Assembly (NCBI RefSeq): GCF_001544015.1
Contig: NZ_AP014924.1
Span: forward strand, 2,790,001 to 2,854,000
DNA from: Limnochorda pilosa
Lineage (GTDB): Bacteria; Bacillota; Limnochordia; Limnochordales; Limnochordaceae
Direction: 5' to 3'
Length of the DNA: 64,000 bases
This document shows positions 9,573-40,749 of the stretch, piece by piece. Within the stretch, counting starts at the first letter, position 1, and each line of letters starts with the position of its first letter. The translations under genes and the position numbers were made by a program. A model generated the notes under the pieces. The model had not been told where the DNA came from. It ran no database searches and saw nothing but the letters and a program-made list of their open reading frames with translations.

Positions 9573-10579
9573 GATCGCGGGCCTTCCTTCTCAGGCTCGC
9601 CCAGGGCCTCCTCCTCGCCCCGGGAGGGTCCGGCCACGCTCTCCCGCATGCGGGTGTCGGCCAGGAGGTTCTGCATCCCGTAGTAGTCCATCACGCCCAG
9701 CTTCCCCTCGCGCAGCGCCTGGGAAAGCGCCTTCGGAACCTCGGCCTCGGCCTCCACCACCCGGGCCCGCATCTCCTGGACCCGGGCGCGCATCTCCTGC
9801 TCCAGGGCCAGGGCGGCGAAACGGCGCTCGGCGGCCTTGGCTTCGGCGATGTTCTTGTCGGCCTCGGCCTGGTCCACCTGGAGCGCGGCCCCGATGTTGC
9901 GGCCCACGTCCACGTCGGCGATGTCGATGGAGAGGATCTCGAAGGCGGTGCCCGCGTCCAGCCCCTTGGAGAGGACCGTCGCGGAGATGCGGTCCGGGTT
10001 CTCCAGGACCTGCTTGTGGGTCTCGGAGGAGCCTACGGTGGTCACGATACCCTCGCCCACCCGGGCGATCACCGTGGGCTCGCCGGCGCCCCCCACCAAC
10101 CGGTCGATGTTGGCCCGCACCGTCACCCGGGCCTTCGCCTTCAGCTCGATGCCGTCCTTGGCCACCGCGGAGACGATGGGCGTCTCGATGACCTTGGGGT
10201 TCACGCTCATCTGGACCGCCTCGAGCACGTTCCGGCCCGCCAGGTCGATGGCCGCGGCCCGCTCGAAGCTCAGGGGGATCTCAGCCCGCTGCGCGGCGAT
10301 GAGGGCGTCGATCACCCGGTCCACGTTGCCGCCGGCCAGGAAGTGGGCCTCCAGCTTGTCCAGGGCCGCGTCGAGCCCGGCCTTCTCGGCCTTGATCATG
10401 GGCAGGACGATGGCCGCGGGCGGCACCCGCCGCAGCCGCATGCCGATGAGCTGGACGATGCCCAGGCGCACCCCCGCCGCCAGGGCCGAGATCCAGAGGC
10501 CCACGGGGACGAAGTAGAAGAGCAGCGAGACGGCCAGGATGATCAGGACCAGGATGAACACGGGTGCGAAGAGCTCCAC
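9569..10579 (-). CDS. floA: Flotillin-like protein FloA
   Basis: FloA scaffolds functional membrane microdomains and affects membrane fluidity and signalling. The 336 residues show an N-terminal membrane hairpin (about 5-40), the SPFH/band-7 region ([31 protein letters not shown]), a coiled coil (about 235-285) and an acidic flexible tail. It lies 51 bp after nfeD, the standard partner, and overlaps the next small gene. Confidence 0.97.
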
Positions 10580-10630
10580 CTGTTCCCACGCTCCTTCGCT
10601 CGGATTTGGGGGCTGGGGCCGAACCGGCGC

Positions 10631-12034
10631 TCAGGACCCGGCCGGATGCTCCTCCTCGACCACCACCCGCAGCCCGTCCACCGCCACCACCCGCACGGGA
10701 CGCCCCGCCGCGATGAAGGCTCCCTGGCTCACGGCGTCCACGGGGTGCCCGCCGATCACCACGCTGCCCGAGGGGCGAAGCGGGGTGCGGGCCACGCCCT
10801 GCGCCCCCACCAGCTTCTCCAGCCCGAGGGCTGGCGCCACGTACCCCTGGGCCCGCTCCTGGCGGGTCATCAGCACCAGCCGCGAGAAGGCACTGGTGCG
10901 CCGGAACCGGCGCCAACCCAGGGCGACGAGCCCCCCCGCCACCACCAGACCCAGCAGGAGCACGGTGGCTCCCTGGCCGGGATCGGGGAAGGCGATCACC
11001 AGGCCCCCCAGAAGCGCCACGATGCCCAGGATCCCCAACACCCCGAACCCCGGCGTCACGAAGAGCTCCAGCGCCAGGAGCACCAGCCCCACCAGGAAAA
11101 GCGCCGCTGCCTCCCAGCCCGCCAGCCCCGCCACCATCCTTCCGCCGAAGAAGAGTGCCAGCGACCCCAACCCCACCGCCCCGGGAACTCCCACCCCGGG
11201 GGTGAAGAGCTCCACCACCAGGCCGGCCAGCCCGAGGCCCATGAGGAGCGCGGAGACCGTGGGGTCGGTGAGGAAGCGGGCCACCCGCTCGGCCGGTGTG
11301 GGGGCAAGCACCTCCACCGGCGGGTCCAGGAAGCCCAGGGTCCGCAGGAGCTCGTCCCGATCCGGTACGAGCCAGTCGGCCACACCCCAGCGGACCGCTG
11401 CCTCACCGTCGAGGCTCAGGATCTGCCCCTCGGCCACCAGGCCGGGAAGGACCACCCGGGCGTCCACCATGGCCGCCGCCACGTCCGCCGGCCGTCCCCG
11501 GGCCCGGGCGGTCGCCTCGAACTCGGCCCGGACGGCGGCGATGGTCTTGGCATCGGCAGGCCGGGGTTCGGCGGCGCCGATGCTCGCTCCCGGGGTGACG
11601 GCGACGGCCGGCGCGGCCAGGGCGATGAGGGCGCCGGCAGACCAGGCCCGATCGTGCACCAGGGCCACCACCCGCACCGGGGTGGCCAGCAGCACGTCCC
11701 GCAGCTCTGTGGCCGCGTCCACCCGGCCCCCGAAGGTGTCGATCTCCAGCACCACCAGCGGCGTGCCCCGGCGTGCGGCCTCGGCCAGCCCCCGCTCCAC
11801 GAAGCTGGCCAGCCCCGGCTCGATGGTGCCCTTCACCGGGATCACCAGCACCGGGCCCGCGCCCTGGGGGGAACCGGCGCCGGCGGCCGCCTGCGCGCCC
11901 GCCCCCGGGTGGGTCGCTCCGAGGGCCAGCGTCCCGGCCATGAGCAGGACCACCAGGAGCAACCTCCACCGGCCCAGTGGGATCACCTCCGGACGGACCC
12001 GTCGTCTCCCCGGCCACTCCTTAGTTTTCGCCAT
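10631..12034 (-). CDS. nfeD: Membrane-bound ClpP-class protease-like NfeD protein
   Basis: The long form of NfeD, partner of flotillins. A signal/anchor (about 18-40) is followed by a ClpP-class domain (VVLEIDTFGGRVDAATELRD; the putative catalytic Ser lies in AWSAGALIALA; SIGAAEP), then four or so membrane helices (about 245-370) and a C-terminal OB-fold (GAQGVARTPLRPSGSV). The ATG at 12034 lacks a close Shine-Dalgarno sequence, so the exact start is uncertain; any longer start would run into rpsU and its terminator. The role in membrane-domain organisation comes from family knowledge. Confidence 0.9.
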   Translation of the reverse strand: MAKTKEWPGRRRVRPEVIPLGRWRLLLVVLLMAGTLALGATHPGAGAQAAAGAGSPQGAGPVLVIPVKGTIEPGLASFVERGLAEAARRGTPLVVLEIDTFGGRVDAATELRDVLLATPVRVVALVHDRAWSAGALIALAAPAVAVTPGASIGAAEPRPADAKTIAAVRAEFEATARARGRPADVAAAMVDARVVLPGLVAEGQILSLDGEAAVRWGVADWLVPDRDELLRTLGFLDPPVEVLAPTPAERVARFLTDPTVSALLMGLGLAGLVVELFTPGVGVPGAVGLGSLALFFGGRMVAGLAGWEAAALFLVGLVLLALELFVTPGFGVLGILGIVALLGGLVIAFPDPGQGATVLLLGLVVAGGLVALGWRRFRRTSAFSRLVLMTRQERAQGYVAPALGLEKLVGAQGVARTPLRPSGSVVIGGHPVDAVSQGAFIAAGRPVRVVAVDGLRVVVEEEHPAGS

Positions 12035-35405: not shown

Positions 35406-36374
35406 TCACGAGAGGTAGCTCAGCACCTCGTCCATGTCCAGGGCGGGATGGAGGGCCACGTTGAGCCCACCGGCCACCACGTTGGCCAGGCTCTCCACCA
35501 GGTCGTCCACCTCGCGGGGCGTCACGATCATGGAGTTGAGGTAGGGCGCCAAGAGGCGCTCAGCCACGCGGCCCGTGGGCTGGCCCATCTGGGAGAGGCC
35601 GTCCTCCACCAGGGTGAGCGCCCGGACCACCGTGGGGACGCCCACGGCCAGCACGGGGATGCCCAGCGACTGGGGGGTGATCCCCCGGCGGCGGTTGCCC
35701 ACGCCGGACCCGGGGTGAATGCCCGTATCGGCGACCTGGATGGTGATCCCCAGCCTCCGGCTCTCCCGGGCGGCCAGCGCGTCGATGCAGATGACCAGCT
35801 TCGGATTCAGCCGGTCCACCAGCGCCTGGATGACCTCGCTGGTCTCGATGCCCGTCAGGCCGAGCACGCCGGGGGCGATGGCCGCCACCGGCCGCATGCC
35901 CCCCCGCTTCTCGGGCGGCACCATCCGGTGGAGGTGCCGGGTGATGGTGAGCCGGCCCACCACCTTCGGCCCTAGGGAGTCCGGCGTGGCGTTCCAGTTG
36001 CCGAGCCCCACCACCAGGGCCTCGTCCTCGGAGCCCACGCCCAGGCCCTGGAAGAAGCGCTGCAGCTCCTGGGCCAGCACCTGGCCGACCTTCTCTTCCG
36101 CCTCCACGCTGCGGCTGCGAAGCTCGGGCGCCTCCAGGGTGGAGTAGTGTCCCGGCAGCTTCCCCATCCGGCGGGCGCCCTCCTCGCTCTCGATGAAGAC
36201 GCGGCTCAGGGTGACGCCGTCCTGCTCCTGGGTGTCCACCGTGACGCCCGGGATCTCGGGCGGCTCCTCCTCCTTCACCAGGACCTGGTGCGCCTCCAGG
36301 GCCAGGTCCGACAGGGCCTCCCAGGTCTCCGCCTCCTCGAGCAGGCGACGCAGGGCGTCGTCGGCCACGCTCAC
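35406..36374 (-). CDS. gpr: Germination protease GPR
   Basis: GPR degrades small acid-soluble spore proteins at germination; it is made as a zymogen that removes its own N-terminal propeptide. The 322 residues include VVGLGNWNATPDSLGPKVV, ITRHLH, VAAIAPGVLGLTGIETSE, ICIDALAAR, VADTGIHPGSGVGNRR and GVPTVVRA, the family core with the conserved aspartates. The GTG at 36374 follows GGAGGTGG. gpr usually lies beside spoIIP and rpsT; here the L,D-transpeptidase and solute-binding genes intervene on one side and ~17.5 kb on the other. Confidence 0.96.
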   Translation of the reverse strand: MSVADDALRRLLEEAETWEALSDLALEAHQVLVKEEEPPEIPGVTVDTQEQDGVTLSRVFIESEEGARRMGKLPGHYSTLEAPELRSRSVEAEEKVGQVLAQELQRFFQGLGVGSEDEALVVGLGNWNATPDSLGPKVVGRLTITRHLHRMVPPEKRGGMRPVAAIAPGVLGLTGIETSEVIQALVDRLNPKLVICIDALAARESRRLGITIQVADTGIHPGSGVGNRRRGITPQSLGIPVLAVGVPTVVRALTLVEDGLSQMGQPTGRVAERLLAPYLNSMIVTPREVDDLVESLANVVAGGLNVALHPALDMDEVLSYLS

Positions 36375-36489: not shown

Positions 36490-39400
36490 TCAAAGGCCGA
36501 TCGCCCAGGTGATCTCGCCTTCCCGGTCGATCGCCACGTGGGCGCCCACGCTCAGGCCGATGGGCGTGCGGTAGCGGATGAGGAGCCCGCCCCCTGCCGT
36601 CCAGGCAGTGGTGCCCGTCTGCCCGGGCGGCCCCAGGAGTCCTTCCTCCCCGAAGGCCCCCCACTCGGCGAAAGCTCCCACCCGCACCGAGGGACCAAGC
36701 TCCCGCAGAACCTCCACCCCGCCCGAAGCGTAGGCCCTCGAAGGCAGCACCGGTGCAGCGATCCGCTGGCCGGTGGCACCCCCGGGCAGGAACCGCCGGT
36801 GGAAGGGCGTCGTCGCCGTGGCCCAGCCGCCCTCGGCCTTCAGGGCCAGGAGCCACGTGGCATCGGACGCCATGGGCCGGACCAGGCCCTGCTCTGCCTG
36901 CAGCCGGCCGAAGCCGGTACCGCCTCCCCCCAGCGGGTGGGCGTAGAACCCGTCGAGCCCGAGCCGGTATCCCGACGTGGGCCAGGCTGGCGTGTCCAGG
37001 CTGCTCCAGGTGAGGCGGGCGAAGGTCGCCCCCTCCTGCCCTTCCCGTAGCGCCTGGGCGGCCCCGCCCACCGTTTCCTCCACCCGCTCGTGGCGCCAGG
37101 CCACCCCCAGCCGGGTGCGCACCCGGGAGGTCCACACGGTCTCGGCGGCGCCGGTGGCCTGCCGCACTTCGCTTCGGACCTGGTCGCCCGCCCGGCCTCC
37201 CAGCTCGGCCACGACCCCGAGGGTGGCCGCATCCCAGGCCGCGGAGAGCTGGAAGGGAGCGAGCGTCCGCGCCAGCGCCGGAGGGGAGGGCAGCTCGACG
37301 CCCAGGTGATAGGAGGCCGGGCTCGTGCCGAAGCCGTAGGATCCCTCCAGGTTGATCCCCCGCCCCGCCAGGTTCTCGTAGCGGAGGCCGAGGCGGTGCT
37401 CCAGGGCCAGGGTGGCCGCCGTGACCGAGGCCCACTCCACCGGGTCCCGGTACCAGCCGAAGCCCTCGTGGACCCGCACGACTGCGTTCAGGGCCGTGCC
37501 GGAAGCCGCGGGCCCCTCCTCTCCAGCGGGAGGGCTCGCTCCGGCCGAACCGTTCTCTCCGGCCCGGCCATCATCGCCCGCACGCTCCAGGGGCACCGGG
37601 GTCACCCGCACCGTCTCGAACGCGCCGAGCTGCATGAGGCGAGCCTGGGTCAACGCCGCCGCCTCGGACTGGAAGGGCTCCCCCGGGCGCAGGGCGATGC
37701 GGGAGGCCACGAGCGCCGCATCGGTGCGGGCGGCGCCCAGCACGGTGATCCGCTCGATGGGCAAACCCTCGAGGGTCTCGGCCGGCCCTCCGCCCCGGCC
37801 ACCCGGTTCGAGGCCGCCCACTTCCTCCCGTCCGGTCACCTCCGCGCCCAGCCCGGCCAGCCGGTCCCTCGCCAGCTCCTGGAAGCGAGCCTCGGCGGCG
37901 ACGTCGGTGAGCGGCACGGCCAGGGCCCGCCCGTAGGCGTCGATGGCCTCGTGGCGGTCTCCCCGCGTCTCTGCGATGAGGCCCAGCCAGTACCAGGCCT
38001 CCACCTGGCGGTAGGGGTCCAGCGCCCGCGGCAGGCGGACCAGCCGGCGGAGGTACGGCTCGGCCGCCTTCCCGTCGCCCTCTCGGAGGTACGACCGCGC
38101 CACCAGCAGCAGGGCCGCCTCGCTCTCGGGGAAGTCGGCCAGGACCGGTTCCAGGAGCCCGCGTACCCGCTCCTGCTCCCCCACGCTCTGGAGGAACTCG
38201 GCCCGCTGCACCGCCCGCCAGGCCCGCTCCTCGCCCGTCTCCACGGGGACCGCCGGCACGCCGCCCAGCGGCTCGGCGGAGCGGGGCGGCAGCCCCAGCT
38301 CCCGGGCCAGGTCGAAGGCGTGAAGCGTTCCCTCGGCGGAGGTACCCGCCTCACTCACCACCCCCGCCCACATGCGGAGCCGGGAGGGGTCGAAGAGGGC
38401 GGTGACGATGGTTCCGGCGTTGTCGATCCCTCCCACCAGGGCCCCGCGAGCCTCTGCACCGCCCCGGTCGCGCAGCACGCCCGCGGCCTGGGGCACGTCC
38501 AGCCCGCCCCGCCAGCGGGTCAGGAGCTCCCGCAGGCGCCGGTCCCGGGCTTCGGAGGCGAGCCACCCCGCCTGCTGCACCTCGCGCATGAAAGGGGTCT
38601 CGTACCGGTTGGTCGCCCAGAGGAGGCCGTCCTCGGGCCGGCGCACCTGGTAGCGGTCCGCCGCCAGCTCGATCACCCGGGCGTCGGGAATCTTGCCGTC
38701 GGCCACCAGCACGTCGAGGCCGATGGTACGGGGCGCCCGCACGATCATCTCCACGGCCTGGTCGAGGGTGGAGGCCTGCTCCAGCACCTGGCGCAGGAGG
38801 AACATGAAGGCGATGCCGTCCGCGGTCACGTTCTCGGATGTGGCGAAGCTGTAGCTCATGCTCACGCTGATGCCGTGGACGTTCATCCCCTGCATCACGC
38901 CCACGTTGGCCGGGTAGGTGACGGTGATGAAAGGATACGCCCCTTCGGGCTCGTAGATGGCCACGAGGCCGTACCGGCCCACGGTCTGCATGGGAAGGTA
39001 GTCCAGGTTGCGCCCGTGGAGGAGCCGGCCGTCCGACGTGGCGACCCCGAAGGCGGCGAAGGAGGTGCACCCGTAGACGATGCCCAGCTCCTGGAAGACA
39101 TTGGGCAGGAGCACGGGCAGAAGGTTCCGCTCCCTCCCCCCGGACGCGGCCGCCACGAAGCCCTCCATCTCCTCCACGAAGGGCTCGGGCGTGTGCCGCA
39201 GGAGGCCCGGGGCGATCTTCGTCCGCATGTACGCGTCCTTGAAGGCCCAGACGAGCCGATCCCAGCCCTCGTGGGGCTGCACCGAAGGGTCGAAGAGCGC
39301 CCGGAGCTGCTCAGCCTCCTGGGCCAGAAGAAGGTAGTTCTGCGCGCCGATCTGGCGGTGCGTGCCCTTGAAGTGGACCACGGTGAGCCCATCCCGCACC

Positions 39401-39630
39401 TCGAGCCAGCCCTCGCCCGCGTACCGCCGCTCGCCCCGCACCTCCACGGCGGTGGGAAGCACCTCGGCCGGGTCCGCGGCACCTGGCCTCCCGGGTCCCG
39501 CGGCCCATCCGCCCGTTCCCGTGCCGATAACGACCAGCGCCGCGAGCACTCCGGCGATCCACCGGCGCATCGTGGGGCGCACGGCCCTCGCGGCCGAAAC
39601 GTGTCCGACGCGTCCTCCCCAGTCCCTCAC
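36490..39630 (-). CDS. Secreted C45 Ntn-hydrolase fused to TPR, POTRA and Omp85 barrel
   Basis: A 1046-residue protein (GTG start at 39630 with GGAGGTGG upstream; an ATG 20 codons later is the alternative). Domains: signal peptide (hydrophobic about 25-40); a C45/acyltransferase-type Ntn-hydrolase domain (about 55-460) with YGCTSFAAFG, where Cys ~188 would become the N-terminal nucleophile after self-cleavage, plus HGRNLDYLP and DNAGTIVTALFDP; TPR-like helices (about 465-595); one POTRA (ITVLGAARTDAAL, GEPFQSEAAA) with a low-complexity insert; and a C-terminal Omp85-type beta-barrel (about 740-1046, RFLPGG, ending WAIGL). This implies a hydrolase held at the outer membrane. The canonical (V/I)RG(F/Y) barrel motif is not clear. 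Confidence 0.85.
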   Translation of the reverse strand: MRDWGGRVGHVSAARAVRPTMRRWIAGVLAALVVIGTGTGGWAAGPGRPGAADPAEVLPTAVEVRGERRYAGEGWLEVRDGLTVVHFKGTHRQIGAQNYLLLAQEAEQLRALFDPSVQPHEGWDRLVWAFKDAYMRTKIAPGLLRHTPEPFVEEMEGFVAAASGGRERNLLPVLLPNVFQELGIVYGCTSFAAFGVATSDGRLLHGRNLDYLPMQTVGRYGLVAIYEPEGAYPFITVTYPANVGVMQGMNVHGISVSMSYSFATSENVTADGIAFMFLLRQVLEQASTLDQAVEMIVRAPRTIGLDVLVADGKIPDARVIELAADRYQVRRPEDGLLWATNRYETPFMREVQQAGWLASEARDRRLRELLTRWRGGLDVPQAAGVLRDRGGAEARGALVGGIDNAGTIVTALFDPSRLRMWAGVVSEAGTSAEGTLHAFDLARELGLPPRSAEPLGGVPAVPVETGEERAWRAVQRAEFLQSVGEQERVRGLLEPVLADFPESEAALLLVARSYLREGDGKAAEPYLRRLVRLPRALDPYRQVEAWYWLGLIAETRGDRHEAIDAYGRALAVPLTDVAAEARFQELARDRLAGLGAEVTGREEVGGLEPGGRGGGPAETLEGLPIERITVLGAARTDAALVASRIALRPGEPFQSEAAALTQARLMQLGAFETVRVTPVPLERAGDDGRAGENGSAGASPPAGEEGPAASGTALNAVVRVHEGFGWYRDPVEWASVTAATLALEHRLGLRYENLAGRGINLEGSYGFGTSPASYHLGVELPSPPALARTLAPFQLSAAWDAATLGVVAELGGRAGDQVRSEVRQATGAAETVWTSRVRTRLGVAWRHERVEETVGGAAQALREGQEGATFARLTWSSLDTPAWPTSGYRLGLDGFYAHPLGGGGTGFGRLQAEQGLVRPMASDATWLLALKAEGGWATATTPFHRRFLPGGATGQRIAAPVLPSRAYASGGVEVLRELGPSVRVGAFAEWGAFGEEGLLGPPGQTGTTAWTAGGGLLIRYRTPIGLSVGAHVAIDREGEITWAIGL

Positions 39631-39927
39631 GGCCAAGCCACCTCCCACGCTTTCCTGTATCAAGGCCGCCAGGAAGGCGTCCGCAGCGGCGCGCGCAGGC
39701 ACGGCGCCCCCTCCCCCGAGCCCACCGTACCCCGTTTCGGGGCGGCACGCACCCGGCGGCCGGGGAGAGGTGGAGCTCCCTGGCCGGGGAGGATGCTGCC
39801 TGGCCGGGTGGCCAGGGCGGGGGCAGAGCGTGGCCCGGGCTCGACGAGCCGCCCCGCGTATCAAACGATCTGCCCGGAGACGGCTTCGGCAGCCGCGGCA
39901 AGCCATCCTGCGCCGGCGCCCGCAGCG
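39631..39927. other. Intergenic stretch before the fluoride operon
   Basis: About 300 bp between the divergent C45-Omp85 gene and the fluoride-operon promoter. It contains GC-rich imperfect repeats (CTGGCCGGG occurs twice, near 39780-39808) but no reading frame, RNA or promoter for the minus-strand gene that I can support. Confidence 0.4.
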
Positions 39928-39956
39928 TTGACGATTCCCACCCGTGCCCGTATAAT
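39928..39956 (+). promoter_or_regulatory. SigA promoter of the fluoride operon
   Basis: TTGACG (39928-39933), exactly 17 bp, TATAAT (39951-39956). The transcript would start near 39963 and run straight into the fluoride riboswitch. Confidence 0.88.
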
Positions 39957-39977
39957 GGCGGCGTTGGGCAGACGCTG

Positions 39978-40066
39978 CCCCGGCGATGGAGCTCGCCGTT
40001 GCCCTCAGGCAAGGTCCCGGGATCCGGGTGATGGCTCCTACCAGCACGGTGGGGGCCTTTTCGTTT
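39978..40066 (+). promoter_or_regulatory. Fluoride riboswitch (crcB motif) with overlapping terminator
   Basis: The aptamer shows the conserved GGCGATGG-AGC-TCGCC element (39982-39997) and the 3' block GTGATGGCTCCTACC ending at 40042, matching the fluoride-binding crcB RNA. The last ten aptamer bases GGCTCCTACC pair with GGTGGGGGCC (40048-40057, three G-U-type pairs or fewer) around the loop AGCAC, followed by TTTTCGTTT. Aptamer and terminator are therefore mutually exclusive: fluoride binding should hold the 3' block in the aptamer and let transcription proceed into the DUF6062 gene, crcB, crcB and DUF190. Confidence 0.93.
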
Positions 40067-40089
40067 GTCCAGGAGCCCCCCGGCAGGTG

Positions 40090-40749
40090 ATGCTCGTGCT
40101 TTCGTGGCTGAGACGTCCCTTCGGGCCGCGTCCCTTCGACGTGGTCGATCTCGCCCTCGAGGCGGCGGCCGAGGTGCCGGGATGCGTGATCTGCTCGGCG
40201 GCCCGCCGTGCCACCGAGCGCAGCTTCGACGCTCTCCTCTGGGAGCTCGTGAACGACCCGGCGGTCCGCGGGCGGATTCGGGAGGCCCTGGGATTCTGCC
40301 CCCGCCACACATGGGAGCTGGTTCGCGTCGAGCGCACGAGGACCCGGAACGTTCTGGGCAAGGCCATCCTCTTCGAGGACATCATCCGGCACGTATCCGT
40401 CCTGCTTCGGAACCCGCAGCCCAGGCGGGCCCTGACGACTCGCCCGCCCTGCCCTGCCTGCGTCGATGAGCGCGAGGCAGAGCGGACCTACCTGGAGCGC
40501 GTTCTGCAGCTCGCGCAGGAGGGCCTCTCGAGGCACGTCACTCCCCCGACGACCGGATCCCTTTGTTCCCGCCACCTAGCTGCAGCCGCGAAGGGCCAGC
40601 TCGCGGATGACCTGGCCGGCTTCATCGACAAGCAGCGGTGGGACGTCGCCACCCCCCTCACCCCTGCCGAGCGGGCGAGCGTGCGGGCGGCTGCCGGATT
40701 CCTGGGCGGTGAGTGCGTGGTGCTGGACGTGGAAGCAGCGGGCCCGTGA
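40090..40749 (+). CDS. DUF6062 family protein, first gene of the fluoride operon
   Basis: A 219-residue soluble protein with paired Cys/His motifs: GCVICSAARRATE (about 34), FCPRHTWEL (about 70), PPCPACVDEREAERTYLERV (about 120) and LCSRHLAAA (about 160). The two CxxC plus CxRH pairs look like two metal or thiol-redox sites in a helical protein. This fits the DUF6062 family, which has no assigned function. It is the first gene after the fluoride riboswitch and is followed by two crcB genes, so it is probably induced by fluoride. No signal peptide or membrane helix is seen. Confidence 0.8.
   Translation: MLVLSWLRRPFGPRPFDVVDLALEAAAEVPGCVICSAARRATERSFDALLWELVNDPAVRGRIREALGFCPRHTWELVRVERTRTRNVLGKAILFEDIIRHVSVLLRNPQPRRALTTRPPCPACVDEREAERTYLERVLQLAQEGLSRHVTPPTTGSLCSRHLAAAAKGQLADDLAGFIDKQRWDVATPLTPAERASVRAAAGFLGGECVVLDVEAAGP

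Follow-up and report, generated by a model that had tools for sequence, protein, structure and literature searches.

The Omp85 proteins count as insertases or translocases. Whether PlpD, the archetype of the "type Vd" group, is a secretion system or an anchored periplasmic enzyme was reassessed only recently. PlpD and the PL-Omp85 proteins join an N-terminal lipid-type hydrolase, one POTRA and a C-terminal Omp85 barrel in a single chain (PMC11116518, PMC4104836). In 2024, topology, cross-linking and lipidomic experiments placed the PlpD enzyme in the periplasm and described the protein as a homodimer that affects membrane lipids (PMC11116518). Here, we analyze a gene of Limnochorda pilosa, located within a 64,000-nucleotide stretch of contig NZ_AP014924.1 (positions 2,790,001 to 2,854,000, hereafter the window), that encodes an N-terminal nucleophile (Ntn) hydrolase of the C45 family linked through TPR helices and a single POTRA to an Omp85 barrel. 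An outer membrane is documented in the class to which this organism belongs, the Limnochordia (PMC11456536).

The locus follows the PlpD layout with an unrelated enzyme, as an earlier note on this DNA had proposed. It differs from PlpD in carrying a C45 Ntn-hydrolase (AAT domain) instead of a patatin, a TPR module between enzyme and POTRA, and a predicted self-cleavage site; moreover, it is found in Limnochordia and related Bacillota, where two-gene versions also exist. Barrels with unusual N-terminal domains are likewise found among the Omp85 subfamilies of Heinz and Lithgow (2014), which include the metallo, WD40, patatin, lipo, noNterm and other groups. The words hydrolase, acyltransferase and TPR are absent from the main text of that survey, and no C45 or S41 fusion was found in the architectures it describes (PMC4104836). 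The 2024 PlpD paper names the metalloprotease, WD40-like and patatin-like types as uncharacterised N-terminal domains (PMC11116518). Enzyme-Omp85 fusions are already known as a kind, and the C45 version appears to be new among them. In keeping with the earlier note, which named no precedent for the combination, no description of a C45- or S41-Omp85 fusion was found in the open-access literature (subscription papers and preprints lay outside the search), and the titles and abstracts of open-access papers on Omp85 with S41 or in diderm Firmicutes gave no such fusions. Holding an enzyme at the outer membrane by a C45-Omp85 fusion thus seems not to have been described before. We consider it reasonably probable that the protein is an amidohydrolase that activates itself and is anchored at the periplasmic side of that membrane.

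Architecture of the fusion protein

The gene is a single uninterrupted open reading frame of 1046 amino acids on the minus strand, with a GTG start at 39630 and a stop at 36490. Third-position G+C is 0.84-0.95 throughout, and codon-position G+C is uniformly coding-like. The frame and coordinates given in the earlier note were exact, and the parts it had recognized (a signal peptide, a hydrolase with an autocleaving cysteine in a GCTS motif, TPR-like helices, one POTRA with a low-complexity insert, and a barrel-like C-terminus with a degenerate motif) were all recovered by profile scans, alignments or models. The features are as follows, in window coordinates.

36490..39630, minus strand: whole gene, signal peptide - C45 Ntn-hydrolase - TPR - POTRA - Omp85 barrel; 1046 amino acids, GTG start
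39641..39645, minus strand: GGAGG, resembling a ribosome-binding site, 10 nucleotides 5' of the GTG start (read from the sequence)
39499..39570, minus strand: signal-peptide-like segment, residues 21-44 (MRRWIAGVLAALVVIGTGTGGWAA); from the sequence, and a helix in the AlphaFold2 model
38299..39444, minus strand: C45/AAT Ntn-hydrolase domain, residues 63-444; PF03417, NF040521 and structural matches
39067..39069, minus strand: codon of Cys188, the residue predicted to act as nucleophile and to mark the site of self-cleavage (G|CTS); invariant in 19/19, structural alignment
37852..38235, minus strand: TPR helices, residues 466-593; profile and AlphaFold2 model
37465..37761, minus strand: single POTRA, residues 624-722; PF07244 weak here and above cut-off in relatives, model
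37498..37584, minus strand: low-complexity insert within the POTRA, about residues 683-711; alignment, and a predicted local distance difference test score (pLDDT) below 50 over most of the insert in the full-length model
37399..37443, minus strand: predicted amphipathic helix in place of barrel strand 1, residues 730-744; both AlphaFold2 models, superposition range on BamA 423/426-806
36496..37395, minus strand: Omp85 beta-barrel, residues 746-1045; PF01103, model, Z of about 24 to TamA/BamA
36751..36792, minus strand: degenerate loop-6 motif, FLPGGATGQRIAAP in place of GG..LRGY; alignment A1

The hydrophobic, signal-peptide-like stretch begins at residue 21. Between enzyme and barrel, the TPR_14 profile scores 29.1 bits (cut-off 23.5) and places TPRs at about residues 500-573; when a profile from alignment A2 was compared with solved structures, the matches were dominated by designed TPR proteins. 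The POTRA profile PF07244 covers residues 625-680 at 17.0 bits, below its cut-off of 21.3, and rises above it in relatives (30.2 bits in G066 and 26.6 bits in G183); the modelled domain superposes on the last POTRA of TamA and BamA. The insert within it is private to this genome, since it is absent from the full-length G183 protein, which is 49% identical over 979 residues, and from the other C45 relatives.

A C45 Ntn-hydrolase with predicted self-cleavage

Pfam AAT (PF03417) matches at 80.1 bits (cut-off 23.2) and NCBIfam C45_proenzyme (NF040521) at 158.9 bits over its full profile length (cut-off 85), with the AAT/C45 profiles placing the hydrolase at residues 88-422. The full-length AlphaFold2 model, whose numbering starts at Met21 so that model Cys168 is Cys188, has a mean pLDDT of 77.5, with the hydrolase mostly above 85. 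For this region, the model gives an Ntn fold, with a Z of 34.2 to isopenicillin-N acyltransferase (2x1c, 329 residues), 30.5 to NAAA (6dxw) and 30.2 to acid ceramidase (5u81). The likeness to the C45/AAT family, which comprises isopenicillin-N acyltransferase and, structurally, NAAA and acid ceramidase, extends to the predicted propeptide and the Cys-Arg-Asp-Asn set; TPR, POTRA or barrel parts, by contrast, are not described for the solved structures matched.

The window protein holds the catalytic set Cys188, Arg207, Asn208, Asp210 and Asn341, and all five residues are invariant in the 19 clade members tested, of which 12 are fused, 5 split and 2 barrel-less. The predicted nucleophile, Cys188, is the cysteine that the earlier note had singled out. 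When the model is matched to mature chains, among them those of NAAA, acid ceramidase, penicillin V acylase and bile-salt hydrolase, the alignment starts at Cys188, which lies opposite their N-terminal residue. An invariant catalytic set and a modelled cysteine that falls on the start of mature Ntn chains make self-activation, as first proposed, likely, and self-cleavage before Cys188 is strongly predicted. The part up to residue 187 would then be the propeptide or alpha subunit. Such a cut would free this N-terminal propeptide only, so the catalytic subunit would stay joined to the barrel.

Inactive forms do arise around this family: a barrel-less C45-TPR paralogue in G033 (L049:8361-10052, minus strand) lacks the nucleophile Cys, the Arg and the Asn and, judging by these losses, is probably a dead enzyme. 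That the fused enzyme has itself lost its activity and is kept for binding or as a scaffold is nevertheless very improbable, given that Cys, Arg, Asn and Asp are kept in fused, split and barrel-less homologues alike.

The POTRA-barrel part

Omp85 (PF01103) matches residues 753-1026 at 39.2 bits (cut-off 24), and at 42.5 bits in a search of the whole genome. Modelled alone with 28 related sequences, the POTRA-barrel part reached a pLDDT of 84.8 and a predicted template modelling score of 0.81, and it superposes over its whole length on TamA (Z 24.5, 365 residues), BamA and Sam50. A POTRA and an Omp85 barrel were thus modelled at the C-terminus, where the earlier note had asked for a structure prediction. 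Compared with BamA, TamA and Sam50, the window protein has a single POTRA, an N-terminal enzyme, a degenerate loop 6 and a predicted helix at strand 1. DSSP assigns 15 barrel strands in the AlphaFold2 model, with a predicted helix where BamA strand 1 lies, so the 16 strands expected from the earlier note's comparison with PlpD are not confirmed; the model superposes on the full BamA/TamA barrel range; the hydrophobic pattern of this helix is conserved in the family alignment.

At loop 6, the window protein reads GGATGQRIAAP, in which GQRIA stands at the site of the (V/I/L)RG(Y/F) motif. Most relatives are degenerate here as well; LRGY is kept in G030 and G033, and the degenerate motif is therefore a graded feature of the family. 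In the two-gene family described below, the same site reads IRSF, IRGF or LRGF.

The full-length structural match to TamA and BamA raises the alternative that the barrel is primarily a device for protein assembly or export, a BamA/TamA-like paralogue whose hydrolase would trim or acylate whatever goes through it. Protein processing is conceivable for S41 and C45 enzymes alike, and the first barrel strand region and the loop-6 motif are the very parts that insertases use. However, those are also the parts that have changed, with a helix predicted at strand 1 and LRGY lost in the window protein and most relatives. The source genome, a 3.82-Mb single contig, has two further Omp85 matches, one of them a strong BamA-like protein that stands separate from the fusion. 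We therefore regard the assembly role as quite unlikely.

Fused, split and barrel-less relatives

The search for the same domain string covered 101 relatives, 73 genomes of the class, 398 of the phylum and GTDB contigs, the last by an alignment-based profile scan. The string, at about 970-1080 amino acids, is shared by at least 14 further genomes, most of them Limnochordia, which makes at least 15 in all. It forms single open frames in G016 (2 copies), G030, G033, G050, G051, G061, G066, G069, G079, G183 and one further metagenome-assembled genome (2 copies); in G025, G034, G042 and G062, it is cut by a contig end or holds one stop. The G042 gene (L047:8778-9728 and 9709-11862, plus strand) is read in two overlapping frames, from a frameshift or a sequencing error. 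A plasmid search gave only C45 matches, covering at most one third of the query.

In five genomes of one other family (G091, G306, G352, G172 and G205), the two halves are two genes. They are adjacent and on the same strand in the first four; in G205, both are at contig ends, with downstream genes that match those of G172, which is consistent with the same arrangement across the contig gap. Two genomes of the same order, G004 and G010, hold the hydrolase-TPR half only. The split and the truncations share one boundary, after the TPRs. Fused, split and the two barrel-less hydrolases form one clade (support 99/98), in which the two-gene family and two fused groups, one of them with the window protein, part in an open three-way fork. 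Across 18 sequences, the pairwise divergences of the two halves correlate at r = 0.986 (best of 2000 permutations, 0.80). This correlation, together with the single supported clade, indicates that the two halves have travelled together.

The earlier note had allowed that a sequencing error might have joined two separate genes, which close relatives would reveal. Separate genes do exist at this boundary in one family, as do two homologues ending after the TPRs, but the error itself did not stand: at least 14 other genomes carry the fusion independently, among them that of the 49% identical, full-length relative. The relatives carrying the fusion rule out a joining artefact, to which we assign next to no probability.

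A stand-alone protein of 392 amino acids in G026 (L108:6327-7502, minus strand) has a signal peptide, a POTRA matching the family profile and a barrel-like remainder; it is possibly another free partner barrel.

Other hydrolases on the same barrel

A second fusion type, of 825-946 amino acids, was found within the same lineages in eight genomes (G051, G054, G060, G067, G071, G125, G152 and G163) and consists of a signal peptide, an S41 peptidase, a POTRA and a barrel of the same family. The S41 part was identified from sequence motifs rather than by profile scan in G067, G071 and G163, and the POTRA is weak or undetected in some of these proteins. Their loci are the following.

L105:7806-10643, minus strand: S41-POTRA-Omp85 fusion
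L106:2810-5563, plus strand: S41-POTRA-Omp85 fusion
L107:7848-10553, plus strand: S41-POTRA-Omp85 fusion
L143:1929-4403, plus strand: S41-POTRA-Omp85 fusion
L144:5284-8115, plus strand: S41-POTRA-Omp85 fusion
L145:4051-6798, minus strand: S41-POTRA-Omp85 fusion
L173:1356-4184, minus strand: S41-POTRA-Omp85 fusion
L174:1019-3838, minus strand: S41-POTRA-Omp85 fusion

A profile built from C45 fusions only scores the S41-fused barrel of G051 at 187.6 bits, whereas the barrels of stand-alone Omp85 proteins stay below 50 bits. S41 genes also occur as neighbours, upstream of the C45-TPR / POTRA-barrel pair in G091 and adjoining the fusion in G016 and G042. Upstream of the corresponding pair in G352 lies a patatin-domain protein (L138:2881-4626, plus strand) with a barrel-like C-terminus, in which no POTRA was detected.

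An S41 peptidase in the same position in eight genomes argues for an anchor with exchangeable enzymes. Taken with the S41 and patatin neighbour genes, these fusions make the barrel look like a platform that received different hydrolases, in which the C45 hydrolase would be an interchangeable unit set on an Omp85 scaffold with one POTRA. A broader proposal, which we advance tentatively and rate just short of an even chance, is that a separate Omp85 lineage of Limnochordia and related Bacillota no longer assembles or exports proteins. Its barrel, with strand 1 remodelled into a helix, would instead be a general outer-membrane anchor for unrelated periplasmic hydrolases (C45 with TPRs, S41), either fused or docked. 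The one-POTRA barrel plan now counts a second and a third unrelated hydrolase, joined or divided at a single boundary; these are independent natural replicates for asking whether Omp85 barrels have been turned into enzyme anchors.

Proposed mechanism

For the periplasmic anchored amidohydrolase, the signal peptide seen in the sequence suggests export by Sec. The C45 domain would fold in the periplasm and cut before Cys188, exposing the catalytic N-terminal cysteine, as the fold and the invariant residues suggest, while insertion of the barrel would fall to the separate BamA that this genome encodes. After cleavage, the propeptide may stay non-covalently bound, as in NAAA and acid ceramidase, and the catalytic subunit would remain covalently held to the barrel through the TPRs and POTRA. 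BamD, a TPR protein, docks on the POTRA of BamA; because of this precedent, and because the halves are separate neighbouring gene products in another family, the TPR/POTRA junction may be the docking place of the two halves. The barrel would then act as an anchor or a membrane-perturbing base for the enzyme, not as a secretion pore. Judging from its fold neighbours, the substrates may be N-acyl amides within reach at the inner leaflet, and our guess includes amide-linked lipids, N-acyl groups of lipid A or lipoproteins, and signalling N-acyl amides. The little-studied outer membrane of diderm Bacillota thereby gains a concrete enzyme to assay.

POTRA domains are periplasmic. We favour the periplasmic location because of this, because the order of parts is PlpD-like, and because a folded Ntn domain with TPRs would be a poor barrel passenger. 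The earlier note had instead suggested a hydrolase displayed or released at the outer membrane, which corresponds to a type Vd-like export as first proposed for PlpD: hydrolase and TPRs threaded through their own Omp85 barrel to the cell surface. The shared layout of enzyme, POTRA and barrel speaks for it, as does the family in which hydrolase and POTRA-barrel are neighbouring genes, like TpsA and TpsB. However, the PlpD patatin domain is exclusively periplasmic, and a folded alpha/beta domain would need unfolding to pass a barrel (PMC11116518). A TPR and Ntn domain is not the beta-helical type of passenger, and after a cut before Cys188 the catalytic subunit would still be tethered. Unlike TpsB with its two POTRAs, the window protein shows one in the models, with no match to POTRA_2 up to an E-value of 1 and none to a TPS domain in the profile scan. 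Surface display or release is thus unlikely, and that part of the earlier note was abandoned.

Several points weigh against the anchored periplasmic amidohydrolase. The exact architecture of the barrel is uncertain, with 15 strands called in the model and a helix at strand 1, and the barrel might itself act as an insertase. The hydrolase does not always need a barrel, as the barrel-less homologues of G004 and G010 show. By analogy, the operon-like split form resembles the gene order of two-partner secretion, and the hydrolase could be exported via the barrel.

Gene neighbourhood

Conserved neighbourhood was considered as a clue to function and set aside, as most linked genes differ between families. 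In the window, a gene resembling the spore protease GPR (35406-36374, minus strand) starts 115 bases beyond the end of the fusion gene, in the same orientation; none was seen adjoining the fusion genes of relatives. A 1219-amino-acid open frame on the opposite strand (37090-40749, plus strand) overlaps the fusion gene and is, by homology, mostly a high-G+C shadow frame.

Within one group of relatives, a membrane protein of 207 amino acids without a Pfam match lies beside the fusion gene (L041:7762-8382, minus strand, with equivalents in seven other loci); it does not occur in the window. Four of these loci also have an Rce1-like membrane protease nearby. Near the barrel-less homologue in G004, a repeated CRISPR-like unit (VSIPQWFDWN/SFNPTMVRLEP in translation) was observed at L035:202-642.

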